This document shows, one piece after another, positions 1,081 through 62,460 of a stretch of 64,000 nt of DNA. How positions within the stretch are numbered: the stretch's first letter is position 1; each line of letters starts with the position of its first letter. Both the position numbers and the translations under genes were made by a program. The notes beneath the pieces are model-generated. The model did no database searches. It had not been told where the DNA came from and saw only the letters and a program-made list of their open reading frames with translations. The stretch is from the NCBI RefSeq assembly GCF_002095535.1, contig NZ_MLJI01000002.1, positions 71,786-135,785 of the forward strand. Reading direction: 5' to 3'. The DNA is from Pantoea cypripedii (GTDB taxonomy: Bacteria > Pseudomonadota > Gammaproteobacteria > Enterobacterales > Enterobacteriaceae).

Positions 1081-2079
1081 ATGCGTACCCGAAATTTATC
1101 TCAAAACCTTACTGTCAGTTCTGTCGGCTATGGAGCCATGGGGCTGAGCGAATTTTATGGCCAGACAGACGATCAGGCCTCCCTGCAACTGTTACATAAG
1201 CTCATCGATTTGAATATCACGTTCATTGATACCGCGAACCTTTACGGGCGGGGCCACAATGAGCGCCTGATTGGTCACTTTCTTGCCGGGCTGGATAAGA
1301 CGACGCGTGAGCAGTTCAAAATTGCCACGAAATGTGGAATCGATCGCTCACCCGACGAGTCATATGCCCGTACCATTAACAACCAGCCTGACTATATCAC
1401 TCGCTGCTGTAATGAGTCCCTCAAAAGACTGGGTGTTGAGCGAATCGATTTGTTCTATCTGCACCGGGTCAGTCAGGCCACTCCCATTGAAGAGAGTATG
1501 GAATGCCTGAGCCGTCTCGTCAGTGAAGGTAAGATCAACCACATCGGCCTCTGTGAGGTCTCCGCTCCCACTCTGCGACGGGCCCATGCAGTACACCCGC
1601 TTACCGCGCTGCAGACAGAATATTCATTGTGGACACGCGATATTGAAGATGAAATCCTTCCGGCATTGAAAGAGCTGGGCATCGGCCTGGTGCCTTACTC
1701 TCCCTTGGGAAGAGGCTTCCTGACCGGAAAATACCGCAAAAACAGTGATTTTGGGGAAGGGGATTTCCGTAAAAATAATGAGCGATTCATTCAGTCCAGC
1801 CTCGATCATAACGCCCAGCTTCTTGACGTTATCGAACCGCTGGCTGAAAAATACAGCTGTACCACGGGGCAGGTTGCGCTGGCCTGGCTGCTGGCGCAGT
1901 ACGACAGGCTGGTTCCTATTCCCGGAACCAAGCACACCTGTTATCTGACTGAGAATGCCCGGGCGGCAGATATTCTTCTGGAGAGCTCAGATATTGCCTT
2001 GCTGAACGATATTCACCAGCGCGTTGAGATCTGGGGCGGCCGTTACTCTGAGGAAGGCATGAAAGGCGTTAATGCCTGA
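1081..2079 (+). CDS. aldo/keto reductase
   Basis: This 332-aa cytosolic NADPH-type oxidoreductase is of the YccK/AKR13-like class. The full catalytic tetrad is visible: D50 and Y55 in FIDTANLYG, K84 in IATKCG and H128 in FYLHRV. The C-terminal coenzyme segment (LVPIPGTKHTCYLTENARAA) is present, so it looks complete and active. The start follows a textbook Shine-Dalgarno AAGGAG seven bases upstream. It converges on the AfsA-type operon across a shared terminator, so it is not co-transcribed with it, but it is a plausible carbonyl reductase for that pathway (inference). Its real substrate is unknown. Confidence 0.9.
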   Translation: MRTRNLSQNLTVSSVGYGAMGLSEFYGQTDDQASLQLLHKLIDLNITFIDTANLYGRGHNERLIGHFLAGLDKTTREQFKIATKCGIDRSPDESYARTINNQPDYITRCCNESLKRLGVERIDLFYLHRVSQATPIEESMECLSRLVSEGKINHIGLCEVSAPTLRRAHAVHPLTALQTEYSLWTRDIEDEILPALKELGIGLVPYSPLGRGFLTGKYRKNSDFGEGDFRKNNERFIQSSLDHNAQLLDVIEPLAEKYSCTTGQVALAWLLAQYDRLVPIPGTKHTCYLTENARAADILLESSDIALLNDIHQRVEIWGGRYSEEGMKGVNA

Positions 2080-2150: not shown

Positions 2151-3326
2151 TCAGCGGTATACGCTCAGCGCCACACCTTCGCCGCCGCCCACGCATAATG
2201 CCGCTACGCCACGCGTGGCATTATTGCGTACGAGGCTATGGACAAGCGTTACCAGGATGCGGCATCCGGACGACCCGATAGCATGGCCGAGCGCAATTGC
2301 CCCGCCGTAAGGATTAATGCGTTCCGGTAATATACCTGTACGGCTGATGACTGCCAGCGCCTGAGCTGCAAATGCTTCATTTGACTCAAGATGTTCAACG
2401 TCTTCTGGTTTCCAGCCCGATCGGGCAAGGCAGTCTGCAATCGCCTGTACCGGCGCGGCGCCCATTAATGCCGGCCTGATACCCGAGTTGGCGAATTTAC
2501 CCAGCGAGGCGAGAACCTGCAGCCCTCTTGCCGCTGCCGTTTCCCGGGTGCAGAGAAGGACTGCAGCAGCTCCATCGTTAAGCGAAGATGCATTCCCTGC
2601 GGTTACCGTACCGTCCTTTCTGAACACGGGCTTCAGTTGCCCCAGTTTTTTAATAGTGGTTTTACGGGGGCCTTCATCCGTATCGACCCGCAGGGTCTCG
2701 CCTTTTCTGTTCTGCCATTCCACAGGGACAATTTCACGTGCAAAAACGCCCTGCTCCTGCGCGCTTAACGCCTTCATATGGGATAAAAGCGCGAATTCAT
2801 CCTGCGCTTCACGGCTGATACAAAATTCATCCGCAACATTTTCGGCGGTCACTCCCATATGATTATTGTCAAATGCGTCCCAGAGTCCGTCAGACACCAG
2901 GCTGTCCTTCAGATTACTGTCACCCAGCCGCATTCCGGTACGCGACGACATCAGGATATGCGGTGCGCTGGACATGCTTTCCTGACCGCCGGCGATAACA
3001 AATTCTGCCTCCCCCGCCAGAAGCGCCTGCATGCCCAGATGAACCGACTTGAGGCCTGATCCGCAGACCTTATTAATGGTCAGGCACTGCGTCTCAACCG
3101 GCAGTCCGGCATTCAGCGCGGACTGCCGTGCAGGATTCTGGCCGCAGCCTGCGGTCAAAACCTGTCCCATAATAACCTGTGAAATTTCACCGGCCTTCAC
3201 GCCCGAGTCTTCAAGAAGCGCATTAATGACGCAGCTCCCCAGCGCGACTGCGGAATGATCGGACAGGGAGCCCATAAATGCGCCTGTTGCCGTGCGCTTT
3301 GCAGAAACGATCACAACTTCATTCAT
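2151..3326 (-). CDS. acetyl-CoA C-acetyltransferase (thiolase)
   Basis: This 391-aa thiolase is the last gene of the minus-strand operon. It has the acyl-accepting Cys88 in NKVCGSGLKSVH, the NEAFAAQA motif, the catalytic His in GGAIALGHAIGSSG and the C-terminal Cys in LCVGGGEG. A small oddity is GHA where most thiolases have GHP. Family knowledge: it condenses or cleaves beta-ketoacyl-CoAs, typically 2 acetyl-CoA to acetoacetyl-CoA. Its start overlaps the preceding gene by 8 bp, so translation is coupled. In this operon it could supply the beta-ketoacyl donor for the AfsA-type enzyme (inference). Confidence 0.92.
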   Translation of the reverse strand: MNEVVIVSAKRTATGAFMGSLSDHSAVALGSCVINALLEDSGVKAGEISQVIMGQVLTAGCGQNPARQSALNAGLPVETQCLTINKVCGSGLKSVHLGMQALLAGEAEFVIAGGQESMSSAPHILMSSRTGMRLGDSNLKDSLVSDGLWDAFDNNHMGVTAENVADEFCISREAQDEFALLSHMKALSAQEQGVFAREIVPVEWQNRKGETLRVDTDEGPRKTTIKKLGQLKPVFRKDGTVTAGNASSLNDGAAAVLLCTRETAAARGLQVLASLGKFANSGIRPALMGAAPVQAIADCLARSGWKPEDVEHLESNEAFAAQALAVISRTGILPERINPYGGAIALGHAIGSSGCRILVTLVHSLVRNNATRGVAALCVGGGEGVALSVYR

Positions 3327-3735
3327 AAGTTTTTCCCTTAAGGCCGGGTAAAGTATGGCCGGTTGCCGCCATTGCAGCGCGGTAGGCTGTCAGGCCGTTC
3401 ATGCATGCCGGTACGCCGGCGTAAACGGCCATCTGTATTACGATTTCAAGCAGCTCTTCAGGGGTAACGCCGGTGTTAAGCGCTGCTCTCATGTGCAACT
3501 CAAGCTGGGGCATGGCGTTACCCAGCGTCACGAGCGATGCCACCGTGAGCATTTCCCGCATTCTGAGATCCAGCCCCGGGCGGCCTACCACAGCGCCAAA
3601 GGCGTAATCGGTGATCAGGGCGGGCAGGCTGGCGTCAAGATCACTCAGCCGGTCGGTGACCTTAGCGGCCAGACCGGGTTCAAGACGGTCCATAATGTCT
3701 CTGCCATAGCGGGTAAGATCGTTAGTTTGACTCAT
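3319..3735 (-). CDS. carboxymuconolactone decarboxylase-like protein
   Basis: The 138-aa all-helical protein belongs to the CMD/AhpD fold, with the core segment EMLTVASLVTLGNAMPQLE, then the LHMRAALNTGVTPEELLEI helix and the AGVPACMNGLTAYRAA segment containing a single conserved Cys. The start at 3735 (MSQTNDL) is preferred over an upstream frame start that lies inside the transporter gene. It overlaps the transporter stop by 14 bp and the thiolase start by 8 bp. The family includes gamma-carboxymuconolactone decarboxylases and peroxidase-like proteins. Within a lactone-forming operon, a lactone-processing role is attractive but unproven. Confidence 0.8.
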   Translation of the reverse strand: MSQTNDLTRYGRDIMDRLEPGLAAKVTDRLSDLDASLPALITDYAFGAVVGRPGLDLRMREMLTVASLVTLGNAMPQLELHMRAALNTGVTPEELLEIVIQMAVYAGVPACMNGLTAYRAAMAATGHTLPGLKGKTYE

Positions 3736-4942
3736 AAGATTTCTCCAGCACGGTTTGAGCTGAGGCCACGCGCGTCGGGATAACGGCCACGAGCAGCACA
3801 GAAAGGCCGATTGCGGCACCGGCTACGATATAGAGCACAGGAACAGATAAAGCAGATACCATCCAGGCACCGGCAGATGCGCCTATACCGATAGCGGCAT
3901 TGAAAAATGAAACGTAGACAGCAGAAGCCGGGAAGGCTTTATCTTCCGCCAGGCGTAAGACCCACGTCTGAAAGCCCACAAAGATCCCGGATACTGCCAC
4001 ACCCCAGATAACCATCGCGGTGAAAACGGCAGTATCTGAAAGCGCTACACCGGATAATCCCAGCGAAACCAGTACGGTGCTGATAAGCAACACTGAGACA
4101 CAAACCGTGGCCCTGAGGTATTTATCGATAACCATCCCGGTCAGAAAATTACCGGCGAGGCCTGCGATGCCGTACACAAACAGAACCACCGGTATTAGTG
4201 AGGTGGCGAGGGACTGCTGCGTGTGCAGCCAGGGTTCAATGTAGGTAAACGCGGCGAAGTGCGCGGTCACTGCCAGTAACGTGGCCGAATAAATTTTCCA
4301 CAGCGCAGAGGATCTGAGCACGCTTTTCAGCGCGTCCAGACCGATGGCGCTTTTACTGGCTATCTGCGGAACAAGTACGCTCATGCCGGCAAATGCGATT
4401 ATGCTGAGTCCCGCCATCAGCCAGAAGGCCAGCCTCCAGCCGAAGTGAATACCGATATAGTTTGATACCGGCACGCCAAACACGCTGGCTGCGGACACGC
4501 CACCAAAAACAATCGACGTGGCGGCGCCGATGTATCTGGCCGGCACAATGGAAACCGCCGTTGCTCCGATCATCGCCCAGAATGCACCGTGAGCAAGCGC
4601 ACCCAGCACGCGCGCTGCAAGCAGCAACGTGTAAGTGTTTACCGTAGCCGCAAGTACGTTAGACAGAAAAAGGATGACCGTCAGCGCAAGCAGAAGCCGC
4701 TTCTTGGCAACATTGCCCAGGAAGACTGATGCAATGAGCGCGCTCAGGGCACCGACCCAGGCATAAAGCGAGACCGTCATGCCCACCGCTGATTCAGAAG
4801 AGTGAAGTCCTTCCGCCATCGGTGTCAGCAGGCCAACAGGCGCCAGCTCTGTGGTGACGATTGTGAAAGTTGAAAGAGCCAGAATAAACAGGGCAAGCCA
4901 TAACCTTAAGGACATAGCCTTCGGGGCATTATCTGTATTCAT
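3722..4942 (-). CDS. MFS efflux transporter (SotB/AraJ-like)
   Basis: This 406-aa protein has 12 predicted hydrophobic helices of the DHA1 drug/sugar efflux class. The TTELAPVGLLTPMA segment in helix 1 and the ALAHGAFWAMIGATA segment resemble the sugar exporters SotB and AraJ. The start at 4942 (MNTDNAPK) follows an AGAGG ribosome-binding site; a longer frame up to 5026 overlaps the phosphatase gene. In the operon it lies between the phosphatase and the decarboxylase-like gene, suggesting that it exports the operon's product. Substrate not known. Confidence 0.85.
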   Translation of the reverse strand: MNTDNAPKAMSLRLWLALFILALSTFTIVTTELAPVGLLTPMAEGLHSSESAVGMTVSLYAWVGALSALIASVFLGNVAKKRLLLALTVILFLSNVLAATVNTYTLLLAARVLGALAHGAFWAMIGATAVSIVPARYIGAATSIVFGGVSAASVFGVPVSNYIGIHFGWRLAFWLMAGLSIIAFAGMSVLVPQIASKSAIGLDALKSVLRSSALWKIYSATLLAVTAHFAAFTYIEPWLHTQQSLATSLIPVVLFVYGIAGLAGNFLTGMVIDKYLRATVCVSVLLISTVLVSLGLSGVALSDTAVFTAMVIWGVAVSGIFVGFQTWVLRLAEDKAFPASAVYVSFFNAAIGIGASAGAWMVSALSVPVLYIVAGAAIGLSVLLVAVIPTRVASAQTVLEKSYESN

Positions 4943-4962
4943 TTTTTTACCTCTGGGATGAT

Positions 4963-5613
4963 TTAAATAACTGGCCAGCACTTTTCTTTCGCGTGCATGG
5001 CAAGCTCCGTAGATTTTCCCACGCATACGGGATGGCCGACTGACTCGAGCATAGGGATGTCCGACAGATCATCTCCATAGGCATAACAATCATCAGGACT
5101 TATTTTCCTCTGACCGCAAAACTGAATAAGCGCCTCCATTTTCCCTCGACCTATAGTTTGTGGAGTACCTATTTCACCCGTAAGGTACCCCTTATCGGTG
5201 ATTTTCAGTGGCGCACAGAGGATATCTGTTACGCCAAGATATTTTGCAATTGGTGCAAGAACGGGACGCATGGATCCGGAAATGAAGACCGCAGGCATAT
5301 TTTGAGCCTGGTGTTTTTTCAGGAGCGCTACCACGCTGCCAATAAAAAAGCTTGAATAAAGCTTGGTGCTGAACCATTTTTCACCGGCCTCCTCCAGCTT
5401 CTTATAACTGACGCCAGCGAACTGGCGGTAGTATTCTTTGTTGAGCTGCTCGCGGCATGTCCCTTTTTTTATTTCAGACCTGAAATGCGTCATATAACGT
5501 TCAAGTTCTTCATGTTCATTATTTTCACGGCACCAGAAATCGTAAAAATCAAACATGCTTTTGGTCGTTATAATCGTTTCATCAACGTCAAAAAATGCGG
5601 CTGCTTTCTGCAA
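4963..5613 (-). CDS. HAD-IB family phosphatase (SerB-like)
   Basis: The 216-aa cytosolic hydrolase shows all HAD motifs: FFDVDETI (nucleophile D9, acid/base D11), VFISGSMRP, a conserved Lys in GRGKMEALIQF and YGDDLSDIPMLES. Its cap is helical (subclass IB). Such enzymes remove phosphate from small metabolites, and some reduce acyl groups when fused, which this one is not. In Streptomyces A-factor biosynthesis a phosphatase dephosphorylates the butenolide phosphate made by AfsA, and this gene is placed accordingly, four bases after the tautomerase gene. Confidence 0.88.
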   Translation of the reverse strand: MQKAAAFFDVDETIITTKSMFDFYDFWCRENNEHEELERYMTHFRSEIKKGTCREQLNKEYYRQFAGVSYKKLEEAGEKWFSTKLYSSFFIGSVVALLKKHQAQNMPAVFISGSMRPVLAPIAKYLGVTDILCAPLKITDKGYLTGEIGTPQTIGRGKMEALIQFCGQRKISPDDCYAYGDDLSDIPMLESVGHPVCVGKSTELAMHAKEKCWPVI

Positions 5614-5616
5614 GGT

Positions 5617-5841
5617 TTATTCCTCGTAATTCTTTCTCCGGCTTTTTACCGGGAAATCTTTATCATGGCCGGGTACGCCCGCATCAGCCCAGCGAGAGGG
5701 CGGTATCTCGGTAATCACAACAGATATTTTATCCAGCGGCGCGCCAGTGTGTTTATGCACGGCAAAAGTAATGTCTTCCTGCAAACCGAGAATTTCTCTT
5801 TCATTTTTTGCAGGCCATGTGGTGATATGAACAAATGGCAT
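5617..5841 (-). CDS. 4-oxalocrotonate tautomerase family protein
   Basis: The 74-aa protein begins MPFVHITTWPAKN, so the catalytic Pro2 is present, and contains the second-strand motif LDKISVVITEIPPSRW typical of the 4-OT superfamily. Such proteins tautomerise enols and ketones using the Pro amine. It is slightly longer than classical 62-aa 4-OT, with a basic tail. It sits between the unknown 277-aa protein (9-bp gap) and the phosphatase (3-bp gap). A keto-enol step on a butenolide-like intermediate would fit, by inference only. Confidence 0.87.
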   Translation of the reverse strand: MPFVHITTWPAKNEREILGLQEDITFAVHKHTGAPLDKISVVITEIPPSRWADAGVPGHDKDFPVKSRRKNYEE

Positions 5842-5850
5842 ATTTATTTC

Positions 5851-6684
5851 TCACTTTACTGTAATAAATTCGTCGAAAGAGCGGCTTTTCAGTTTCAGTT
5901 GAGCATGAATATCTCCGCCCAGGCCATAAAGTCCTATTGCGCCGCCGTAGCTCTGTCGGGAGCTCATATAGAGCACGACCACGTTAATTATTCGGTTTTC
6001 ATTACGTTCATGCGCGGGAAACGGATCGGGCAATTCTGCCCAGTAGTCTGCATTGCCGTTGTGATCGGTAATGAATACGTTGGGTATGCCCAGCGGCCCG
6101 GGGCGGCTCGGATTTTCGGTCGCCAAATCCTTTTCACGCAGGCTCATGACGGTATAAACACTGTCAGGTACAAGATAGCGAAAAGAAAACTTAAACAGAG
6201 CACGCCTGCTGTCTGCCGAAAGATGTACCTCGAGTATGCCCTCAGCTTGTATCCAGTCGGCCAGATTAACCGGAGGGATATGACGCTTGCCATCGCTGCT
6301 GCGGTAGTCCGCTATGTAGCCTTCATGCAGTGGGAGGCTGGGGCGGCTTTCGGTATTTGCCAGCGGACGCTGCTCGGGCGCGAACACCATTCCGTAGTTG
6401 TTTAACGGGACTGGTAAGGGAAGTGTGTGCAGGATAATATCCCGGCACTCTTCCTGTGACATGTCCTCAATGTCGCGCAGTATCTTATAGGGTGCCGTTT
6501 CTCCAAATGCAGGAAGCGGGCTGTCAGCGGCGACAATGACGCTGCGCCATTCAGGTCCGTTTTCTCCCGGTACCATGCCAACCACCACAAAGTTACCCTG
6601 CTGGTCCATTACCTCCGCAGGGGGATAAAGCGGCCCCTGGGTGGTAGCAGCCAGACGGTATTTCTGGCTGCGTAATTCAGGCAT
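5851..6684 (-). CDS. protein of unknown function in the AfsA-type operon
   Basis: I do not recognise this 277-aa protein. It has no signal peptide or membrane helix. The visible character is beta-rich: VVVGMVPGENGPEWRSV near the N-terminus, SRRALFKFSFRYLVPDSVYT in the middle, then GIPNVFITDHNGNADYWAEL and INVVVLYMSSRQSYGG toward the end. The central-to-C-terminal part resembles a small-ligand-binding beta-sandwich. Its start overlaps the stop of the AfsA-type gene by 8 bp (ATGCCTGA), implying translational coupling and a stoichiometric partner or next enzyme. No function is assigned. Confidence 0.75.
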   Translation of the reverse strand: MPELRSQKYRLAATTQGPLYPPAEVMDQQGNFVVVGMVPGENGPEWRSVIVAADSPLPAFGETAPYKILRDIEDMSQEECRDIILHTLPLPVPLNNYGMVFAPEQRPLANTESRPSLPLHEGYIADYRSSDGKRHIPPVNLADWIQAEGILEVHLSADSRRALFKFSFRYLVPDSVYTVMSLREKDLATENPSRPGPLGIPNVFITDHNGNADYWAELPDPFPAHERNENRIINVVVLYMSSRQSYGGAIGLYGLGGDIHAQLKLKSRSFDEFITVK

Positions 6685-7453
6685 GCGTCACCCCGGGTGT
6701 TGCATCCTGCTGCGCCGCAATTGCTGCCTGCATGGCCGTCTCCGCCAGAGACTTTTCCTTTTCAGAAATCAGCGCTGAAGGGTAAACCGTGAACGACACG
6801 TCCATGGTTGCACAAAGCGTCTGGTGCTGAGTCACGCGAACCTGGGCCCTGAAGCGCCCCCTGCGCTCATTGACGTCCTTTTCAAGATATTCGAAATGGA
6901 CTAGTGCAGGTAAAGGAAACAGGAAGCTTGAAAAATTAATCGCCATGCTGTTGATGACGTAGTAACGTCCTGTTTCCTGCTTGTAAATAAACTCTTCGGT
7001 AACGGCGATAAAAGCCTGACGACTTGCCTCAACCAGAAGCATTCCCTGAATGTGCTGACCGGTCTGATGATCGGCCATGAGCTCACAGCGCTCATCGATC
7101 AGCAGCGACATGGCAAAAAGGTCACTGTTATGTTCAGTCTGCTCCGCTGAGCCAATCAGAACATTCTGCTCAAGCCGCTTATGGCAGTGTGCATTCTTTT
7201 TATCGTTAACCAGTTTTTCCAGAGAGCACATTTTAATCTTATTGCCGTGAGCGGCATTTCTTGACTGATTGGAAATTACCTTTCCCGCAAAATCCTTACG
7301 CACACCCTGCCCGATGATAATTTCATGCTCTTTGTCGATAATATTGGCGGGTATTTGCGTCAATAATTCAAGCTGAGAAATTGTCAGAACATCTTTTCCG
7401 TTTGCAAATTCATTAAACTTATCGCCGACGACAACCAGTTTTTTACAGTTCAT
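6677..7453 (-). CDS. AfsA-type gamma-butyrolactone biosynthesis protein
   Basis: This 258-aa protein carries AfsA hot-dog signatures: HKRLEQNVLIGSA at about 91-103 (the VHK...EVLLT element of AfsA proteins) and DHQTGQHIQGMLLVEASRQ at 128-146 (the DH...GMVLLEAARQA helix). Family knowledge: AfsA condenses a beta-ketoacyl thioester with dihydroxyacetone phosphate to start A-factor-type butyrolactones. The start at 7453 (MNCKKLVVVG, after GAGGGA) is preferred. The extra 26 residues of the longer frame derive from a duplicated tail of the neighbouring gene. The family is best known from Streptomyces, so an operonic copy here is notable. Confidence 0.82.
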   Translation of the reverse strand: MNCKKLVVVGDKFNEFANGKDVLTISQLELLTQIPANIIDKEHEIIIGQGVRKDFAGKVISNQSRNAAHGNKIKMCSLEKLVNDKKNAHCHKRLEQNVLIGSAEQTEHNSDLFAMSLLIDERCELMADHQTGQHIQGMLLVEASRQAFIAVTEEFIYKQETGRYYVINSMAINFSSFLFPLPALVHFEYLEKDVNERRGRFRAQVRVTQHQTLCATMDVSFTVYPSALISEKEKSLAETAMQAAIAAQQDATPGVTHA

Positions 7454-7664
7454 TTGGTTTCCCTCAACAACAACATGCACGATAGATACGGGGGTACAGG
7501 CCTTCATTACCTCCGGTGATATAGTTATCACCAGCCTGCTGGATAAAGTTTTTTACAGTTCATTTAGTTTTCCTCAACAACAACAACATGCAATGCACGA
7601 TAGATACGGGTATACAGACCTTCATTACCTCCGGTGATATAGTTATCACCAGCCTGCTGGATAA
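7437..7664. repeat. abutting imperfect tandem duplication, about 110 bp
   Basis: Bases 7437-7546 and 7547-7664 are near copies. Both begin AGTTTTTTACAGTTCATTT and both end CACCAGCCTGCTGGATAA, differing by small indels and a few substitutions. The copies carry the end of the alpha/beta-barrel gene and the start codon of the AfsA-type gene. In copy 7547-7664 the duplicated AfsA start (ATG at 7563) runs into a stop after 11 codons. In copy 7437-7546 the neighbour's stop TAA has become CAA, fusing leftover codons to the AfsA frame. Confidence 0.9.
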
Positions 7665-7914
7665 TTTCCTGATACCGCGCATTGGTAAATGCCTCTTTGT
7701 AAGCTTCTTTCTCGCCACTGAACGCAGAGATAAACATCACACCCGGCACGCCGCTGATGAGTGAGTGAAATGCCTCGAAGCTTTCAATTTTATCTTTATT
7801 ATCTCTTACCACGTTAAAAATAGTCTCATCACGCCACTGGCGATATTGCTGATAGTTATGCGCCGGGACTTCAACGTGACGCAGCTGAATATACGTTGTT
7901 TCCGGAAGGTGTTT
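7564..7914 (-). pseudogene. dimeric alpha/beta-barrel (antibiotic-monooxygenase-like) protein, start lost
   Basis: The open frame reads KHLPETTYIQLRHVEVPAH and continues through FEAFHSLISGVPGVMFISAF to VVVVEEN and a stop. This is about 116 residues with the length and strand pattern of a one-domain ferredoxin-like dimeric barrel. No ATG/GTG/TTG exists at its beginning, an in-frame TAA lies at 7915-7917, and the CTAGCTAGCTAG site follows 25 bp upstream. An internal GTG at 7812 would give only 82 residues and lose the first strand and helix. I read it as 5'-truncated. It was probably the first gene of the AfsA-type operon. Confidence 0.55.
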
Positions 7915-7939
7915 TTATTGTCGATGGGGATTCAACGAA

Positions 7940-7953
7940 TCTAGCTAGCTAGG
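7940..7953. other. CTAGCTAGCTAG palindrome, right copy
   Basis: Identical to the 14-mer at 24-37. It lies between the truncated barrel gene (minus strand) and the acyl reductase (plus strand). It could be an operator for the divergent genes, but the adjacent loss of a gene start makes an assembly linker or recombination scar at least as likely. Confidence 0.6.
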
Positions 7954-8006
7954 GAATAACGTGGCCGGAATAGCCACTGTTTACACATCATCATTAGATT
8001 AAATCC

Positions 8007-9116
8007 ATGCAAAAAATATTAATCACGGGCGCAACAGGTTTTCTTGGCGGCGCGGTAACAGGTAATCTGTTAAAGAAAGGTCAAATAAATAATCTGCTGT
8101 TGCTTGTCAGGGGAGAAACGCCTGAAGAGGGACTGGAGCGGGTTAAAAAAAATCTGGCGAAGTTCGGGCTGGATAGCACTCTGCTGGACTCTCTGACATC
8201 TCAACAAATCCTGGCTGGCGATCTCTCTGAACCCGAGCATTTTACAGCGGATCCCCGGCTTGATGATGTTACTCACGTCCTGAATTGCGCCGCAGTGGCA
8301 TCGTTCGGGAACAATCCCTGGATCTGGAAGGTAAACGTGGAAGGCACCTTTAAGTTCGCCAGCCGGATGAGCCGGGTCAGTGGACTTAAACGCTTTGTCC
8401 ATGTGGGAACCGCGATGTCCTGTGCTCCGCGTGCCAACAGTCTGGTGACGGAAAGCGAACTGGCAACCTCCCGTCAGCAGCACATTGTCGAGTACACCTG
8501 GAGCAAAGCGACGATTGAAAGAATGATGATGGAGTCCTTACCCACGCTGCCGCTGGTGATTGCACGTCCCTCCATCGTGGTAGGCCATTCGCAATACGGA
8601 TGTGAACCCTCCGCCAGTATCTTCTGGGTGTTCCGCATGGCGCTCATGCTGGGTAAATTTATGTGTGAGCTGGAAGACCGCATTGATGTTGTGCCGGTGG
8701 ATTACTGTGCCGATGCGCTCGAATTGCTGCTGACAGCGGATGAAGTGGAGAAGGATGTGTTCCACATTTCTGCCGGAATGAACAGTAGCGTGACTTTTGC
8801 TGAAATCGACATCGCGATGGCCAAAGCATCTGGAGATTCCCCAGTCTCTGCCAGCTACCAGAAAGTCAATTACAAAGAATTGAGTGCGGATAAGAAAAAT
8901 TTTTCGGCACTTTTTGGTCCCTGCAATGAACGCATCATGCTGCGGGCAATGAACCTTTATGGCCACTTTTCAAAGCTTAATGTGGTGTTCAGTAACGAGA
9001 AGTTGCTTAAGTTAGGTATGCCGCAATCATCAAAATTTACCGATTATCTTGATCGCTGTGTAGCGTCGACTAAGGGTTCTACGATTGCAGAGTTGATGGA
9101 GATTGATTTTAAATAA
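8007..9116 (+). CDS. thioester reductase / fatty acyl-CoA reductase-like, NAD(P)-binding
   Basis: This 369-aa extended short-chain dehydrogenase belongs to the NAD_binding_4 (male-sterility/thioester reductase) group. It has the Rossmann motif ITGATGFLGGAV at residues 6-17, NCAAVASFG in the substrate strand, and YTWSKATIE with the catalytic Tyr-x3-Lys. No carrier-protein domain is fused, so it would act on a free CoA or ACP thioester to give an aldehyde or alcohol, or as an epimerase-like reductase. It is divergent from the AfsA-type operon and a natural candidate for its reductive step, with the caveat of the CTAG junction between them. It ends at a strong terminator. Confidence 0.85.
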   Translation: MQKILITGATGFLGGAVTGNLLKKGQINNLLLLVRGETPEEGLERVKKNLAKFGLDSTLLDSLTSQQILAGDLSEPEHFTADPRLDDVTHVLNCAAVASFGNNPWIWKVNVEGTFKFASRMSRVSGLKRFVHVGTAMSCAPRANSLVTESELATSRQQHIVEYTWSKATIERMMMESLPTLPLVIARPSIVVGHSQYGCEPSASIFWVFRMALMLGKFMCELEDRIDVVPVDYCADALELLLTADEVEKDVFHISAGMNSSVTFAEIDIAMAKASGDSPVSASYQKVNYKELSADKKNFSALFGPCNERIMLRAMNLYGHFSKLNVVFSNEKLLKLGMPQSSKFTDYLDRCVASTKGSTIAELMEIDFK

Positions 9117-9147
9117 GCAGGCCGAACCTTAAATATTACTGACATCT

Positions 9148-9176
9148 AAACAGGCGCAATATATTGCGCCTGTTTC
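9148..9176 (+). terminator. rho-independent terminator
   Basis: A perfect long stem, AAACAGGCGCAAT / ATTGCGCCTGTTT, with a 2-base centre lies 30 bp after the acyl reductase stop. It isolates that gene from the giant gene that starts at 9405. Confidence 0.85.
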
Positions 9177-9404
9177 GTACTTCGTCGAGCGCATCCCCGG
9201 CATCACCCGGTTTATTCCGTCATTTTTCTTCACGCCCCCTGCTGCGAAATTTCTTCTGTTTACTGACCACCCTGATAAAAAGCAGGCTCGCGTATCAGTT
9301 GAGCGAAATCCGAAAGTTCAGGTCTTTTCCCGATAATCCCGCCGGACTGTTACCGGTAATCTCCCCTGATTAATTTTTTAACTTTTTTAACATCAGGGAT
9401 TTCC

Positions 9405-12400
9405 ATGCAAACCAACACAGCCAGAAACATACCTTCTTTAGCCACAGGGGGCATTGCTCCCCACTCAGCGGAATTGAGCACTTCAGGTAAATCCGCCCGG
9501 TCAGATTATTCATTTGTCGATGATGATTCACTGATCCTGCTGGACAGCGCAATGAAAGTGGCCCTGGCGCTTGTGGCTGAGGCTGAAAAAGTGGGTGGGG
9601 ATCTGAATGGCTGGCTGCATGACCCGGATGTCGGCAATTTGTTTAAGGAGGTGATGAAGAACAGTGACATACGTTGTTTTCTGGAGGAAAAGTCTGGCCT
9701 GAAGATAATGACGGACGGCGGAAATACGCTGGCGTCGAGGGTCACCGGTGGCAGCGGGTTACTGACGCGTGAGGAAGGCGAAAAGCTGGGTGACGTGCTG
9801 GTGGACCTGCTGCTCAGGGATGAGCTGCAACACCGCCTTATGGCAGCATGGGAAAAGGAGGAGGAGCCGGCGCAGGCGACGCAGGCGGAGCTGCCGGATG
9901 TACCGGAGCTGCTGGAGCAGCGCGAGATGCTGAAAGAGTTCCGCCGCCTGGGGGAAAACCGTGAATTCCTGGTGGTGGACCGGGAGCGGCTCACGGAGAA
10001 AGCGTCGGAGCTGGAAAAACAGACGTGGACACCTTACACCCCCGCGCTGGCGGGTGCGGCGGAGGCACTGCAAATCCTGTGCCGGAAACTGTCAGCACAC
10101 CCGCCAACCACGCCCGAGCAGAATGTGGGGATGATGAACGCGGTGCTGTCGCTGAGCGACCTGTCGGAGGCACTGATACAGACGGATAAAGTGCTGGCCG
10201 GGGTGGCTGCACATAAAGCCAGCGGGGGAGAAGTTGAGCTGGAAGCCGGGCCGGAAGCGGCGCTGCGCGCGCTGCGGCAGGCACTGTCAAAGAGTGAATG
10301 GAAACACGTCTGGGATGCCGTAAAGAAGACAGGTAAAGGTGAGAAGCTGACGTGGCAGGGCAACCTGCGCGGCACGCTGAAAACGGCCTGGGAGAGCATG
10401 GAGCTGCACTGTAAGGACGTGACGAAAGCCCTGGAAAAAGAACGTGATACCTATCTCAGGGATGTGTCACACGAGGTGAAGTGGCTGGAGGATGAAGATG
10501 AGGCACTGGGTGCGGCTTGCGCCGGCAGCAAAAGCGCAACGGTCCGTGAGGCGCAATGGGCGCTGAGAGCGCTGAGCCGGGAAATCAGGGTTGAACTGGA
10601 GTTGTCAAAAGAGGGTGACACAGGGCTATTAAGGGATTTGAAAAAAGCCACCACAGACCTGTGTGACATGTCCGCGGCCCTGCAGAACATGTCAGCGATT
10701 CAGCAGGCGGTGAAGGACGGGCGGATGGCGAACCCGAAAGACCCTGTGGCGATACTGGCGGGTAAGGCGCTGAAAACAGTGGGGCATGACCTGGAGAAGG
10801 CGCGGGGAAAGCTGGAAAAGCATCTGAAGGAGAGACGCCTGTGCCGCCCGGATAACGGGGCCCTGGCAAAGAAGCTAACAGAAGCCAGTGAAGCGGCAAA
10901 GAAGGCTGCAGGACTGATGGGCCTCAGGCGTGAAATGCTGAAACCGGAGCTGCCAAAGGCGACGCTGGCAATCCTGACGCGCGATCTGAAACACAGCAAA
11001 AGTGTGCATGCCATAGGCCGGACGTGGGCCAGTGCGGGAGAAGTGCTGGCGGCACTGAAGTTTATGGCAGTGAAAGGCTGGTACGGCGTGGAAAACGGCT
11101 GTGCGCACTGGTTCCACGGGGCAAAGCACAGCGTGCATGATCAGCAGATAAGGCTGGCGGCGACCGGTCCGCTGGGGATGATGGTGAATGTCTACCGGGC
11201 GATGGAGGATCTGGCCGCCGCCTCCCTGACGGCATCGTCGAAGAAGGCGGCGGTGACGCGACAGGTGCACGACAATCACAGCCGGCTGAAAGCGGATGCG
11301 CGGACGGAGACGCCGGAGCACTACCGTGCGGCGAAGCTGGCGGAGCTGGATGAGAAACGTCAGGCGGCAGAACTGCAGCTGAAGAATCTGGGCAGCGAGC
11401 TGAGCGCAGCGCAGCAGGAGCTGGACGGGATGTGGTCTCGGGCGGGCAGCTTGCAGCAGAAGAGCGACATCACCCGGCTGCGGGATAAGTGCGGTGAAAC
11501 GGTAAAGGTCTGTCAGAATTCAGCGGCAGAGATGCAGCGGAAACTGGACCAGCTGGTGAATCCGGCCGGAGGCCGGGCAGACATCAAAGCGGATGCGCTG
11601 AACAATAAAGAGTCATTCCAGCAGGCGCTGTACGCCATTCAGGACTGTCAGCGTGATACGTTGCTGGCGATGAAACGGCTGGAGCTGACGGTCGCGCACA
11701 TCACCGGCAAGAGTTTCGCGCTGTTTTCAAAGGACGCGCAGCTGGCGAAATACTTCGCGGGGCCGATTTATCTGTCTGAAACCATGTTGCCGGAAAATCT
11801 GACAGAGACAGAGCGTGATGCGTATCGTCAGCTGCTGGATCTGGCGGCCGAAGAGGCGGGCAGGGCTTTTCCCAAAAAATCGGACCCGCAAGGGGAGGGG
11901 CTGATAAACCGGATAAAACGCGAGGTGAGCCTGCTGCGGTCGGGCAGGGCCCTGAAACCTGAAACGCTGGAGCATGCGACAGCGTTCCGGCAGGGCTGGG
12001 CGCAGAAGCTGGCGAGTAAGTCGACCGGGAAAGCCTCTTCGGATTTCACGAAATGGGTGATGAAATCCGTGTTCAAACAGGCTCTGCCGGAGCTGTTTGG
12101 GGTGTCGTTCCCGGTGGTGAAGGTGCTGAAGCTCGCCTGGGGGGCGACACGACTGCTGGACGCATTCTTTGAGGATATGAAACGTGTGAATGCGACGATT
12201 ACCCCGGGAAATAAACTGCCGGACGAGGTGGTGAGTAGCATCCGGATGGCCGTGGTGCTGGGGCTGGCGGAAAAGCTCATCACTACGGTGGGTGGGACAC
12301 CGGCGAAACTGATAAAGGATATCGCGGGGTTAGCGCTGAAGGTGTACAGCAGCAGCTACGGAGAAACGTTCGCCGCCACGATGAAGGCACTGCCGAAAGA

Positions 12401-15200
12401 GTCGCTGATTAACCTGGGGTTTGAGGGAACTAACCGCGCCGGTGTGGAGGTGGTGCGGAAGGTGCGTGAAGAGCTGAATGAGGTGGCACAGGCATCTGCC
12501 AGCAGTGAAGGAAGGGCAGGTGAAGCGAAAAAGATCCCGGTAGGGAATAGCCGCCCGGCAGAAGCGAACCGGGTAGCGGAGCAGCAGCGGGAGGTTGTGG
12601 CAGCAGCGGAGAAAACACCGGGAGCAGTGAAAACACCGGCCGCAGTGAAAAAGACGGTCCGCTTCGCCGATGAGGAAATGCAGGGAGATGCACCGGCAGT
12701 GGAACCGGAGCAGGAGGTCAAGAGTCGGAGAACACGCAGTACACCGCCCCATATGGAACAGGCGCCATTTGATGCCAGTGCCGTACAAACACCGGTAACC
12801 GGCGCGCCTGAAGCCGCAGAGGATGATACCCTGGAGGGGGCCAGCCAGAGCACTCCCGTTGGCAGCACCGACGCCAGCGAATTCTCGATGACCGAAGAAG
12901 AATATAACGATACGCAAATCGGTATTGACGTGCGGAATAACACCAAAATCAGAACATTTATCGAGAAAGATATTCAGAAAGTCATAGCCAGGCATCCTGA
13001 CGGCCATGGAAAAATAACCTCACCCTATAGCTATGTCGATACAATGAATGACAAAACAAGACCGCCAATTTTTAAGCGCGTGCGGGTGATTGATATTTAT
13101 ACCGGTAACGGTGTTACTGATGATGTAAAGGTATTATGGGAAGGTGGCACGGGCAGGCGTGATTCAACTGACACCAACGAAGCCTTCCGCAGGGATCTTT
13201 TTGGTCATAAGCCGTATAAGTTTGACAAGAACGATCCTTTTAAAATTAATCGCCTTACGCCAGAAGATATCAATCGCTCTCAGCGTTCATACACTAGGCT
13301 GCGTCAGGAATGGACGAGCCATATGGCCGAAATGCGCAAACGAATGCCAGAACTGGCGACCCTGTACCGCAATATATTTAAGCTTGGTTTTACCAATGCA
13401 CTTAATTCTCCGGAAAATGATCTTTCTGAAACTGAGAAAGCAACAATGAGGGACTACTTAAAGGGTGACACCAGCCGTGTTATCACGCTGAGATACAATG
13501 AACAGCGGGTGCCGGACGTTATCGCCCTGGTGGTGCCTGGCACCGGGGAGAATGAAACTCATATATTAATGATGGATTATGATGGCAACTTCAAACGGGT
13601 TAAGGCTACTCGTGAACTGGGTGAGGTCGAGAATAATAGTCCGCGCTACTCATTTAAGCCGGATGAAGAGACTCAGCAATTTATTTCCCGCCGTTTGGTT
13701 GCGGGTGACGAAAAAGAAGCCGAAAAACAGACAACACCAAAAGTAATCATGGATCCATCCAGTCATTACGATACAAAACTGGCAGACAGGCATTTTAATG
13801 CCCAGGAGAGAGAATTCGATCGCGTGGTGGCTGATGCAAGCAGAGAGAGATACGAAATTATAGATAAAGCTCTTGATACCTCCGCAGGATATCTGGGTAT
13901 GGCGTTGGGTATGGCGGGCTTTCCTAAATCTACGCCAATGGGGATGCTTGCTGGTGCAATAATCACCACAGGAAAGGGACTGATAAAATACGTTATAACA
14001 CCGGCTGATGACAAGGTAAGGTTGCGGAATATCCGCAACCAAACCATCAGAGATGTCTTTACGGGTGGTGCTGCTGATCTAATTGGCGCGAAGGTGATGG
14101 ATAATGTGCCAGAGGGTTTTCGGAAGATGTCAAAAGACACTCTGGGCTGGTATCAACGTTCAACATCGATGTCTGGAGATATCGGCAAGGCGTTCAATAA
14201 AGGGGCTGATAAGGTCTATGACTGGATGGGGCTGACCGTAGTAGATACGACGAGAACCGACACCCCCTTTTCAAATGCTGAGCGGGCGTCAGCATCCTCA
14301 GAGGACGCACTGACTGCATCTCCCGATGTCGGAGTGGGTAGTTCAAGAACTGGAAAACTGTGGAACCAGACCACAGCTGATCTTAATAAGGGATTTGACG
14401 AGCTGAGATATAATAAGTTATCAGCAAATACCCTGAAAAACCTGGAAGAATTAGGCATCGATTATAAAAAAATACTGGATAAGCATGCCAGAGATGGTTC
14501 CATTGAAAAAGCGACCGACAACGGCATTACGGATTATAGCCAGGTAGAATATGATCAGCACGGAGTGAATGAATTGTGGGGTGATGTCTCGAAAGCCTAT
14601 AAAAAATGGGAACAGTCTGAGCGTCTTGAGAGAATGATCGGTAAACTGGAAGAGCTGGAGAGTAAAATCTCGGGTGAGCAAACAATCCAGATCCCTTATA
14701 GTTTATTAAAAGACTTTCGTGATGCGGGGTTTGATATAGATGAGTACCTGAAAGGAAATGCTGTCGATGATGATAATAACCCGGAAACTCAATACACCCG
14801 GAAACCTGAACGCGCACGGTTGAATCGCACTGAGTTAAAAAGATTAATATTCATAGCTAAAGCGAAAGAACTGGAACCATCAGATATTAATGGCGCTCTA
14901 AGATTGCTTGATGAAATAAGATATTCTTTGAGTGGTAATGAGAAAACAACCATACCCAATGAGTTGCAGGAAATACTTGAGAAAAATGGAATAAAGATTA
15001 AGGATTATCTCCGTACGCATGGCGACGCCGAACCTGCTCGTAAGGCAGCAACTCAAAAAGGATATGCAGAACCAGAGCAGCATTTATTGTCATCCGATCG
15101 GACCATGGATAAACATCAATTCGGTGATCTGGCGGTCATGGCCCGTCTTAAACTCCTTGAGAAAACGTGCAGGGACCTAAAGATGAGGTTGAATCACTGA
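9405..15200 (+). CDS. giant mosaic protein, candidate secreted effector/toxin (N-terminal fragment)
   Basis: I recognise no characterised family for this 1,931-aa protein. The first 45 residues are Ser/Thr/Ala-rich without a Sec signal, like type III leaders. Residues about 150-880 are helical and charged. Hydrophobic stretches lie near 900-985 (LFGVSFPVVKVLKLAWG and IRMAVVLGLAEKLITT). A Pro/Ala/Glu-rich linker covers about 1040-1155. From about 1160 the DNA becomes distinctly AT-richer and the protein changes character (IALVVPGTGENETHILMMDY, then a Gly/Ala hydrophobic hairpin near 1495-1530). The last 250 residues are repeats that continue in another frame past the stop. The start follows CAGGGA. 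Coding is certain; function is not. Confidence 0.8.
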   Translation: MQTNTARNIPSLATGGIAPHSAELSTSGKSARSDYSFVDDDSLILLDSAMKVALALVAEAEKVGGDLNGWLHDPDVGNLFKEVMKNSDIRCFLEEKSGLKIMTDGGNTLASRVTGGSGLLTREEGEKLGDVLVDLLLRDELQHRLMAAWEKEEEPAQATQAELPDVPELLEQREMLKEFRRLGENREFLVVDRERLTEKASELEKQTWTPYTPALAGAAEALQILCRKLSAHPPTTPEQNVGMMNAVLSLSDLSEALIQTDKVLAGVAAHKASGGEVELEAGPEAALRALRQALSKSEWKHVWDAVKKTGKGEKLTWQGNLRGTLKTAWESMELHCKDVTKALEKERDTYLRDVSHEVKWLEDEDEALGAACAGSKSATVREAQWALRALSREIRVELELSKEGDTGLLRDLKKATTDLCDMSAALQNMSAIQQAVKDGRMANPKDPVAILAGKALKTVGHDLEKARGKLEKHLKERRLCRPDNGALAKKLTEASEAAKKAAGLMGLRREMLKPELPKATLAILTRDLKHSKSVHAIGRTWASAGEVLAALKFMAVKGWYGVENGCAHWFHGAKHSVHDQQIRLAATGPLGMMVNVYRAMEDLAAASLTASSKKAAVTRQVHDNHSRLKADARTETPEHYRAAKLAELDEKRQAAELQLKNLGSELSAAQQELDGMWSRAGSLQQKSDITRLRDKCGETVKVCQNSAAEMQRKLDQLVNPAGGRADIKADALNNKESFQQALYAIQDCQRDTLLAMKRLELTVAHITGKSFALFSKDAQLAKYFAGPIYLSETMLPENLTETERDAYRQLLDLAAEEAGRAFPKKSDPQGEGLINRIKREVSLLRSGRALKPETLEHATAFRQGWAQKLASKSTGKASSDFTKWVMKSVFKQALPELFGVSFPVVKVLKLAWGATRLLDAFFEDMKRVNATITPGNKLPDEVVSSIRMAVVLGLAEKLITTVGGTPAKLIKDIAGLALKVYSSSYGETFAATMKALPKESLINLGFEGTNRAGVEVVRKVREELNEVAQASASSEGRAGEAKKIPVGNSRPAEANRVAEQQREVVAAAEKTPGAVKTPAAVKKTVRFADEEMQGDAPAVEPEQEVKSRRTRSTPPHMEQAPFDASAVQTPVTGAPEAAEDDTLEGASQSTPVGSTDASEFSMTEEEYNDTQIGIDVRNNTKIRTFIEKDIQKVIARHPDGHGKITSPYSYVDTMNDKTRPPIFKRVRVIDIYTGNGVTDDVKVLWEGGTGRRDSTDTNEAFRRDLFGHKPYKFDKNDPFKINRLTPEDINRSQRSYTRLRQEWTSHMAEMRKRMPELATLYRNIFKLGFTNALNSPENDLSETEKATMRDYLKGDTSRVITLRYNEQRVPDVIALVVPGTGENETHILMMDYDGNFKRVKATRELGEVENNSPRYSFKPDEETQQFISRRLVAGDEKEAEKQTTPKVIMDPSSHYDTKLADRHFNAQEREFDRVVADASRERYEIIDKALDTSAGYLGMALGMAGFPKSTPMGMLAGAIITTGKGLIKYVITPADDKVRLRNIRNQTIRDVFTGGAADLIGAKVMDNVPEGFRKMSKDTLGWYQRSTSMSGDIGKAFNKGADKVYDWMGLTVVDTTRTDTPFSNAERASASSEDALTASPDVGVGSSRTGKLWNQTTADLNKGFDELRYNKLSANTLKNLEELGIDYKKILDKHARDGSIEKATDNGITDYSQVEYDQHGVNELWGDVSKAYKKWEQSERLERMIGKLEELESKISGEQTIQIPYSLLKDFRDAGFDIDEYLKGNAVDDDNNPETQYTRKPERARLNRTELKRLIFIAKAKELEPSDINGALRLLDEIRYSLSGNEKTTIPNELQEILEKNGIKIKDYLRTHGDAEPARKAATQKGYAEPEQHLLSSDRTMDKHQFGDLAVMARLKLLEKTCRDLKMRLNH

Positions 15201-16285
15201 TAAACAGTGGAACCCCGGGACGATTAAGTCCGGCGACAATCAATTCTCTGAGGAATAATGGCATAAATATTGACGCTATTGCTGACCGCTATGGTACTGC
15301 GTCTTCAAAAACCGCGGCAATGAGCGGTGCAAGCGAACTGAATGTTGAAGAGGTTGACATTGATGAGACCGGGGCCAGATTGCTCAGAACGAAAATTGAT
15401 CAAAAAATCAGGGAATATAAAATAAGTATAATGATTGAGAGAATAAAATCTCTTAAGAAAACGCCAGATGTTGGCTATCGCCTGCCACATGATATTACTG
15501 ACTTCATTAAACAAGGTCAGGAAACCAGTGATGGTGAACTTTATCTGGAACATCTCAGGCATAAAAACCTCAGCGATTCGCAATTGAAATCACTGCGCTG
15601 GATGTTAGAAGCTGAAGTTGAGTTATCTCCCGACAGTACGTATGAAGAACTCGCTGCATTTGTACACAAAATAGAAAGCGAGACTGCGCCAGGGGAGAAG
15701 GTTACTCTTCCCTCTTCATTAATTCATTATTTAAGAGCGCGTGGTGTGGATATTGATAAATATTTGCAGGAGAAGGGTGACTCAGTGGTTGCGAAAGATA
15801 ATGCCAGAATAAGAGGTGATGAAGAAAATCAATATAACAAGGCAGAAGTTGAGATAAATAAAAGCCAGCTCAAAGAAATAGAGGACATGATTGTTGCGCA
15901 GAAAAGAAAGGCGGAGACTCCTGATATGATGAAGAGGTTGAATGATCTCAGGACGTCAATAGATGAAAATAGCGAAGTTGAGCTGCCTACAGATATAACG
16001 AATTTTGTTCTTGCCAGTCCGGAAGTTGATGATGACAACAAGTATCTGGAAGAGTTGAAAGGGAGGACCGTGACCAAAGCTGAATTGGACTGGCTATACT
16101 GGACATTAAAAGCTGAAAATGAGCTGGGCAAAGACAGTACTCCGGAACAAACCATTGCCTTTATGCGGGAAATGGAAAATTCAATGGTCGGGGATGAGAC
16201 CAGACCGTTACCTCCGCGTTTGATTAACCGTTTGAAGGCCCATGGCATCGACGTTGATGATTATCTTAAACGGTATGGTGATACC
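14432..16285 (+). repeat. about eight degenerate 75-91-aa protein repeats
   Basis: Each unit has a helix, a short polar turn such as GNEKTTIP or GEKVTLP, then a helix ending in a G-I-D-I-D-x-Y-L-like motif and often a Y/H-GD tail. Clear motif positions begin near 14432 (LEELGIDYKKIL), 14705 (FRDAGFDIDEYL), 14965 (LEKNGIKIKDYL), 15239, 15494 (variant), 15719, 15995 (variant) and 16223. Spacings are roughly 273, 260, 274, 255, 225, 276 and 228 bp. The array crosses the frameshift without interruption of pattern, the best evidence that the two frames are one gene. Confidence 0.75.
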
Positions 16286-38238: not shown

Positions 38239-38350
38239 AACTCATGATTTTACCCTGATAAAAGCAGGAATATTTAGCATGTCACGGAGGTAAGCAGTAA
38301 GGTTCTGGCAATGGATTTCCTGTACCCAGGCTAAAAATCAAGGAGTGACT

Positions 38351-62318: not shown

Positions 62319-62460
62319 CCCGCAGTTGAAATCGTGGAAATTCGTTGGCGAAATGATATAAGACAATGATTTTTAGATAGATACAGAATACTCTGTCGCA
62401 CGGAAGTCGATGGAAATTAATACATAAAATCAGAATGTTTTTTAAATGGAAATTAAAAAC

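Follow-up and report, generated by a model that had tools for sequence, protein, structure and literature searches.

An AfsA-containing cassette of enterobacteria, its kinship with the killing cluster of Ruegeria pomeroyi DSS-3, and a split copy in Pantoea cypripedii

What might a compact operon built around an AfsA-type condensing enzyme be making in an enterobacterium, and is it a system that has been met before? Both questions are raised by a stretch of 64,000 nucleotides from Pantoea cypripedii (contig NZ_MLJI01000002.1, positions 71,786 to 135,785; 'the window' denotes this whole stretch), in which positions 2151 to 9116 had been proposed, from the letters alone, to encode a butyrolactone or butenolide pathway with a gene set not previously described. 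The observation behind that proposal is partly confirmed here, and its interpretation is partly supported. The system is, as judged from sequence, a variant of a described killing cluster, that of Ruegeria pomeroyi DSS-3, and not a new gene set. We give slightly better than an even chance to the following reading: that the operon in the window is the tail of a conserved cassette, which represents an enterobacterial branch of the DSS-3 killing-cluster family, and that this cassette directs the synthesis of a small, exported, butenolide-derived metabolite used mainly against competitors.

The AfsA-family protein and its operon

The assignment of the protein encoded at 6677-7453 to the AfsA family is correct. 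Its match to the PF03756 profile has an E value of 6.4e-14 and a score of 52.6 bits (cut-off 24); across the 6.55 Mb genome it is the sole match at E <=0.001 (55.1 bits), and none of 14 control genomes matches. The motif pointed out in the original prediction, DHQTGQHIQGMLLVEASRQ, occupies residues 128-146, and E142, R145 and Q146 are invariant in 29 of 29 aligned AfsA rows (for both AfsA and U277, a protein introduced below, the alignments consist of rows selected from 120 listed matches; the AfsA alignment includes the window's protein). A conserved Glu and an Arg-Gln pair in the central helix are a hallmark of the family. The predicted model has the hot-dog fold, as a single domain with an alpha/beta N-terminus, which sets it apart from the A-factor-type synthases (ScbA being a two-domain form); other enterobacterial loci have two PF03756 matches in one frame. 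Assignment to a plain FabZ-type dehydratase, which had been named as a result that would count against the proposal, is not supported by the profile search, with only PF03756 (over its cut-off) and 4HBT_2 (under its cut-off) listed at E <=0.1 and no dehydratase or FabZ-type Pfam family matched. A sequence search for AfsA relatives of solved structure returned none at E <=1.

The surrounding features are as follows, where 'relatives' refers to six enterobacterial loci named in the next section.

1081..2079, plus strand: aldo/keto reductase (AKR), convergent with the operon; a cassette member outside the originally proposed range of 2151..9116
2151..3326, minus strand: short-chain thiolase of the acetyl-CoA C-acetyltransferase type (PF00108/PF02803; TIGR01930 over its cut-off)
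3319..3735, minus strand: CMD-family protein (PF02627, E 6e-19); counterpart in 6/6 relatives
3722..4942, minus strand: predicted MFS exporter, SotB/Cmx-like (PF07690, E 2.3e-34); counterpart in 6/6 relatives
4963..5613, minus strand: HAD-IB phosphatase with a TTG start (PF12710; TIGR01490, 134.2 bits against a cut-off of 98.3); 6/6 relatives
5617..5841, minus strand: 4-oxalocrotonate-tautomerase-like protein (4-OT; PF01361, 26.9 bits against a cut-off of 22); 6/6 relatives
5851..6684, minus strand: 'U277', a conserved 277-residue protein without a Pfam match; homolog of the DSS-3 gene that is probably SPOA0341
6677..7453, minus strand: AfsA-type enzyme, putative phosphorylated butenolide synthase, 258 residues (PF03756)
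7464..7559, minus strand: short duplicate of the 3' end of the truncated first gene, with an open 31-residue frame
7564..7914, minus strand: 'U204', the truncated first operon gene, C-terminal part only (start-bearing 82-residue open reading frame (ORF) at 7564-7812)
7944..8006, no strand: junction; cassette homology is over by 7943, and an unrelated gene starts at 8007
8007..9116, plus strand: NAD_binding_4 reductase, not in the cassette, unmatched in the six relatives' loci

From 7453 down to 2151, seven consecutive minus-strand genes either overlap or are separated by no more than 20 bases, in the order AfsA, U277, 4-OT, HAD, MFS, CMD, thiolase, and all seven are intact. The series of seven near-abutting genes thus stands as originally described, with two amendments: U277 (5851-6684) had been overlooked, and a truncated eighth gene, U204, is added at its head. 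The HAD phosphatase, tautomerase, CMD, thiolase, MFS and AKR calls all lie over their Pfam cut-offs. The thiolase contains the motifs NKVCGSG, GHAIG and CVGGGEG, has a counterpart in 6/6 relatives, and finds acetyl-CoA acetyltransferases and a biosynthetic thiolase among its closest solved relatives, in agreement with its designation as a short-chain enzyme. The AKR (PF00248, E 7.9e-76; motifs DTANLYG, ATK and YLHR) has perakine reductase as its closest solved relative and is 83-91% identical in amino acids to counterparts in all six relatives' loci, so that its suspected membership in the system holds. The motifs FDVDET and YGDDLSD are found in the HAD protein, a proline is at residue 2 of 4-OT, the CMD protein has one cysteine and no CxxC, and the MFS protein matches NCBIfam PRK03545 and cmx_cmrA, both under their cut-offs. 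The starts of the CMD gene (ATG, 3735) and of the MFS gene (4942, within an ORF extending to 5026) were set by those of the relatives; scans of CMD ran with 3732 and computations on MFS took 4948. Between 900 and 9300, promoter-like sites number 7 (9.1 in shuffles) and terminator-like sites 13 (9.0 in shuffles).

Conservation, rarity and decay of the cassette

A collection of genomes from 84,980 species was searched for close relatives of AfsA; the pattern matched 24 stretches, six of them relatives: Erwinia rhapontici, Cedecea sulfonylureivorans, Enterobacter wuhouensis, Lelliottia nimipressuralis, Buttiauxella warmboldiae and Enterobacter genomosp. O (L034-L039). They were found through near-identical AfsA words and are therefore all close relatives. 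In all six, the set from U204 to thiolase is kept together with the AKR (65-93% amino acid identity), as the proposed co-occurrence across genera had anticipated; U204 is complete, at 201-203 residues, and a divergent LysR gene lies upstream. The conserved order is divergent LysR, U204, AfsA, U277, 4-OT, HAD, MFS, CMD, thiolase and convergent AKR, and across the loci of about 20 kb (ORFs of at least 70 residues) only the cassette genes and LysR recur in 6/6. For eight genes (AfsA, U277, 4-OT, HAD, MFS, CMD, thiolase and AKR), comparison of the window with four of the six relatives (three for CMD) gave dN/dS values of 0.011-0.185, with dS saturated in some pairs (up to 6), and with the window's MFS start entered two codons early and its CMD start one codon late; these eight genes are under purifying selection.

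The cassette is rare and patchily distributed. Among 392 genomes of the window's family, PF03756 was found in 21, U277 in three and U204 in four; AfsA adjoins U277 in all three U277-bearing genomes, two of which are taken to be the Cedecea and Erwinia genomes already counted. None of four sampled genomes of the same genus has AfsA, U277 or U204, and window positions 4963-7812 have no DNA-level match in 5,426 E. coli genomes. Broken copies make up three of the nine enterobacterial copies looked at (the window, L002 and G138/L072), a proportion that would accord with a trait whose maintenance is costly. What is left of the cassette in the decayed copy of Enterobacter hormaechei (L002) is LysR, 4-OT, MFS and the AKR, with U204 and HAD in part and a remnant of the thiolase; AfsA, U277 and CMD have no match in that record. 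The decayed copy in G138/L072 retains an incomplete U204, an AfsA of less than full length and a LysR gene (53% identity). In three of the intact Enterobacter and Lelliottia loci (L036, L037, L039), the cassette is flanked by a DUF1198-like gene on one side and a NepI-like MFS gene on the other (named by eye), and the decayed E. hormaechei copy lies between genes annotated in the same way.

How is the window's copy related to this complete form? A search of its own genome places residues 92-200 of U204, with one TAA included, in the window, where DNA homology to the relatives at U204 extends to 7928-7943; the duplication at 7464-7559 is alike to the U204 3' end at 88 of 101 positions. No LysR gene, such as the DSS-3-type killing cluster has, lies beside the operon in the window. 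On the same contig, a LysR gene 84% identical to the relatives' type is located at C2:1142442-1143341, and C2:1140012-1140125 encodes residues 1-37 of U204, interrupted by two stops; the two are separated by an IS21-type pair, one member an integrase-core protein and the other an IstB protein. These pieces are about 1.06 Mb from the operon (about 0.35 Mb the other way if the contig is circular), and U204 codons ~38-82 are in neither piece according to DNA alignments of both. The window copy is thus split, in this assembly, from LysR and from the head of its first gene. Since the cut removes the operon from both, its native upstream region is lost, and the copy may consequently be silent or under another promoter.

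The gene that now stands across the junction, the divergent 'acyl reductase' at 8007-9116, had been counted as part of the system and is set aside. The six relatives' loci contain no counterpart to it, and its relatives, among the matches listed, are on Pantoea plasmids; on one of these (L003), read by its annotation, no cassette gene is beside it. The plasmid search matched 760 records (655 Escherichia; 20 listed), none of which covers 80% of the query. Lacking a counterpart in the relatives and found on a plasmid with no annotated cassette gene beside it, it was rejected as a pathway enzyme.

Two proteins of the cassette belong to no named family. U204 has no Pfam family over its cut-off, and its likenesses to MethyltransfD12 (18.1 bits, cut-off 22) and GGDEF_2 (14.9, cut-off 24.5) were taken as chance. 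The predicted model of U277 is a barrel resembling Cu,Zn superoxide dismutase; the likeness is in fold only, as the histidine metal ligands are not conserved, and identification as a dismutase was rejected. A barrel of this kind without its histidines could, if the model is right, belong either to an enzyme or to a protective binding protein. In a sample of the class, U277 matched eight of 369 genomes, at full length only in the window's genome (G000) and G689, and in the C-terminal barrel only in G535, G570, G588, G592, G605 and G714; in a sample of the phylum it matched two of 398, G000 itself and, partially, G714. In G689, relatives of U277, AfsA and HAD are adjacent (41, 30 and 32% identity) and an MFS relative is ~5 kb off, with no match to the remaining cassette proteins in 19 kb. 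When 72,556 plasmid records were searched by tblastn, two of them matched U277, one from Streptomyces sp. YIM 121038 and one from Ruegeria pomeroyi DSS-3, each with an AfsA relative close by; a Streptomyces violaceusniger plasmid with an AfsA match over 57% of the query is not one of them.

The DSS-3 killing cluster and other known systems

The megaplasmid of DSS-3 (NC_006569.1, L065) bears a cluster, labelled 'GBL', with homologs of AfsA, U277, U204, 4-OT, HAD, AKR, CMD and MFS, together with LysR genes, and hence every gene type of the window except the thiolase, contrary to the expectation that no described system has this gene set (PMC7426152). Identities to the window's proteins are 52% for AKR, 52% for CMD, 43% for MFS, 47% for HAD, 47% for 4-OT, 54% for U277 and 38% for AfsA; the window's U204 fragment is 60% identical over 67 residues. 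The arrangement differs: in DSS-3, MFS, CMD and AKR are on the strand opposite AfsA, whereas in the window the AKR alone is convergent.

In DSS-3, a diffusible killing activity was lost in transposon mutants of AfsA, SPOA0341 and the regulator SPOA0344; six of seven non-killer mutants fell in the cluster, where afsA was hit three times, SPOA0341 twice and SPOA0344 once. The SPOA0341 and SPOA0344 mutants became sensitive to their parent, and the afsA mutants were still immune. In an afsA mutant, transcripts of ten cluster genes fell 4- to 60-fold, and these were ten of only 21 genes changed out of 4,252. The authors did not settle on a molecule, and they pointed out that homologs of this kind occur mostly in gammaproteobacteria and actinobacteria (PMC7426152). 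No reported product of the cluster was found in the accessible text of the literature. Gene order, taken with the text of PMC7426152, would make SPOA0341 the counterpart of U277 and SPOA0343 that of U204. U277 is therefore a conserved protein family without a Pfam match that the DSS-3 genetics, by gene order, would tie to both killing and self-protection. The enterobacterial operon is in this way connected to an AfsA-linked killing cluster established by genetics; that cluster is active, whereas the window copy is split.

A third version is found on the Streptomyces sp. YIM 121038 plasmid (L066), which shares AfsA, HAD, a U204-like gene, U277 and AKR, has beta-ketoacyl-ACP synthase III (KAS III), an acyl carrier protein (ACP) and a TauD-like dioxygenase in place of the thiolase, and, in the annotation of that stretch (an incomplete gene table), has no entry for CMD, a tautomerase or MFS.

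More distant systems share parts of this design. The phosphorylated butenolide synthases of the A-factor, MMF, SRB/SAB and gladiostatin pathways share PF03756, several with a phosphatase partner, and a proteobacterial (Burkholderia) PF03756 domain condenses 3-ketothioesters with dihydroxyacetone phosphate in vitro (PMC7756379). In the methylenomycin (mmy) cluster of the S. coelicolor plasmid SCP1, an acetoacetyl thioester and a sugar are proposed to be joined by a butenolide synthase on the way to an antibiotic; for MmyD, described as an AvrD-like protein, the presumed substrate is a pentulose (PMC12593393), and the cluster is likened to the cassette by description only. An AfsA ortholog with a proposed role in antibiosis has already been noted in an enterobacterium, on ICEPan of Pantoea ananatis, so that the window is not the first such case; its gene set is different, with neighbours resembling phosphonate, amidotransferase, ACP and dehydrogenase genes (PMC4458695, set beside the window by description only), and none of the words tautomerase, carboxymuconolactone or thiolase appears in the accessible text of that paper. 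AntiSMASH butyrolactone calls outside the actinomycetes are on record for Klebsiella and Enterobacter (PMC9453069, PMC13348353), and a Pseudomonas Ps664 'A-factor-like' set comprises AfsA-like, hydrolase, P450 and MFS genes (PMC8719888). Locus L043 looks like the latter by eye: at 8980-13370, one frame with two PF03756 matches is followed by HAD-, P450- and MFS-like genes. Such other AfsA types in the family sample were set aside as a different system.

The present enterobacterial gene set was not found listed in what was seen of the open-licence literature, and some of the genera may be named among the 35 organisms of Table S1 in the DSS-3 paper. Within that scope, the new elements are the enterobacterial form that includes a thiolase, with its complete list of genes (LysR, U204 and AKR among them), its pattern of decay and the split in this genome.

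Function of the cassette and state of the window copy

Every chemical step, and the role itself, is what we infer from the gene families. The thiolase would make acetoacetyl-CoA, which AfsA would join to dihydroxyacetone phosphate to give a phosphorylated 2-acetyl-3-hydroxymethylbutenolide; the HAD protein would then strip the phosphate, and the AKR and 4-OT may respectively reduce and isomerise the product. CMD, U277 and U204 might perform cluster-specific steps or provide self-protection, and the MFS protein would export the small metabolite, under the control of LysR. The added thiolase narrows the likely substrate to acetoacetyl-CoA. The presence of a thiolase in the enterobacterial cassettes, of KAS III and ACP in Streptomyces, and of a thiolase adjoining a distant AfsA-HAD pair in L040 suggests that such clusters bring their own supply of a short beta-ketoacyl unit, the simplest candidate being acetoacetyl-CoA; as its cluster lacks a thiolase, DSS-3 would need to draw on one from elsewhere. 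The L040 locus (7875-16355), where the distant AfsA lies between the HAD and thiolase relatives, also contains two AKRs, an MFS gene, a LysR relative and, by eye, a FAD-monooxygenase-like gene, and is another possible short-chain butenolide cluster.

By analogy with DSS-3, the product is more likely to be antibiotic-like than a dedicated signal, killing being favoured over pure signalling on account of the DSS-3 phenotype. That the product is an autoregulator, a butyrolactone or butenolide that is exported, sensed and used to switch on other genes, we consider unlikely. Autoregulators are found among AfsA-family products (PMC7756379), and the loss of transcription of most of the cluster in the DSS-3 afsA mutant also fits signalling (PMC7426152). 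Yet the other changes in that mutant were few, killing and self-protection map to the cluster, and LysR is the only regulator-type gene common to the six relatives' loci. An ArpA-like (TetR-type) receptor of the kind used in Streptomyces gamma-butyrolactone signalling is not shared at those six loci of about 20 kb (ORFs of at least 70 residues), a search that did not extend elsewhere in the genomes.

CMD, 4-OT and LysR proteins are typical of beta-ketoadipate-type pathways, so that the operon could instead be pictured as catabolic or detoxifying, its 4-OT, CMD and thiolase degrading or neutralising an aromatic or lactone compound under LysR control; PcaC- and tautomerase-like NCBIfam matches, under their cut-offs, point in the same direction. 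We regard this as quite improbable: such operons would not be expected to include a SotB/Cmx-like exporter or a member of the AfsA family, and the DSS-3 transposon mutants lose killing (PMC7426152).

For the proposal of a butenolide-derived weapon, several observations are awkward. The AfsA protein is only 38% identical to that of DSS-3, scores 25 bits against NF041195 (ScbA/BarX butyrolactone synthase; equivalog cut-off 200), and has FabZ dehydratases and thioesterases as the nearest solved folds to its model, so that the donor, the acceptor or even the reaction could differ. The DSS-3 cluster has no listed thiolase where the enterobacterial cassette has one; the enterobacterial LysR is not closely related to DSS-3 LysR1 (33% over only 97 residues); and the transcriptional effect of the afsA mutation, as said, suits a signal too. 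The split could possibly be a mis-assembly, which alone would leave the missing codons and the duplication unaccounted for; and with its copy damaged, this strain may make no product at all.

Indeed, the evidence that the copy in the window is now a non-functional relic, whatever its ancestral function, seems to us evenly balanced. Its first gene is truncated, its LysR gene and native upstream region are lost and a 3' duplication is present; decay is seen also in L002 and G138/L072 (3/9 copies), and AfsA, U277 and U204 were each found in 0/4 of the same-genus genomes sampled. On the other side, the frames of AfsA, U277, 4-OT, HAD, MFS, CMD, the thiolase and the AKR are open over their full length and under constraint, and another promoter may serve the operon.

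For the butenolide-weapon proposal itself, a bolder extension, possible but somewhat doubtful, is that a patchily inherited cassette, common to enterobacteria, a roseobacter and a streptomycete, makes butenolide antibiotics of a new class, very short and built from an acetoacetyl unit. U277 would be its signature enzyme or its self-protection factor, and the acetoacetyl unit would come from a thiolase in enterobacteria and from KAS III with ACP in the streptomycete. If the product is indeed an antibiotic, several enterobacterial genera would carry a class of antibiotic so far unlisted. The compound could be looked for in relatives whose cassettes are complete, among them Buttiauxella and Cedecea.

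The remainder of the window holds a few further genes of note. To the left of the cassette, a transposase OrfA of the HTH_Tnp_1 type (PF01527) is encoded at 333-599 on the minus strand. On the plus strand, 9405-15200 and 15167-16615 encode a very large pair of proteins (1931 and 482 residues; no Pfam match at E <=0.01), 38345-39772 encodes a protein of 475 residues with a weak likeness to the ShET2 N-terminal domain (PF07906, 17.3 bits, under the cut-off of 25), and the product of 62446-63828 has a Scabin-like ADP-ribosyltransferase domain (PF22596, E 1.4e-17) behind what looks, by eye, like a signal peptide.

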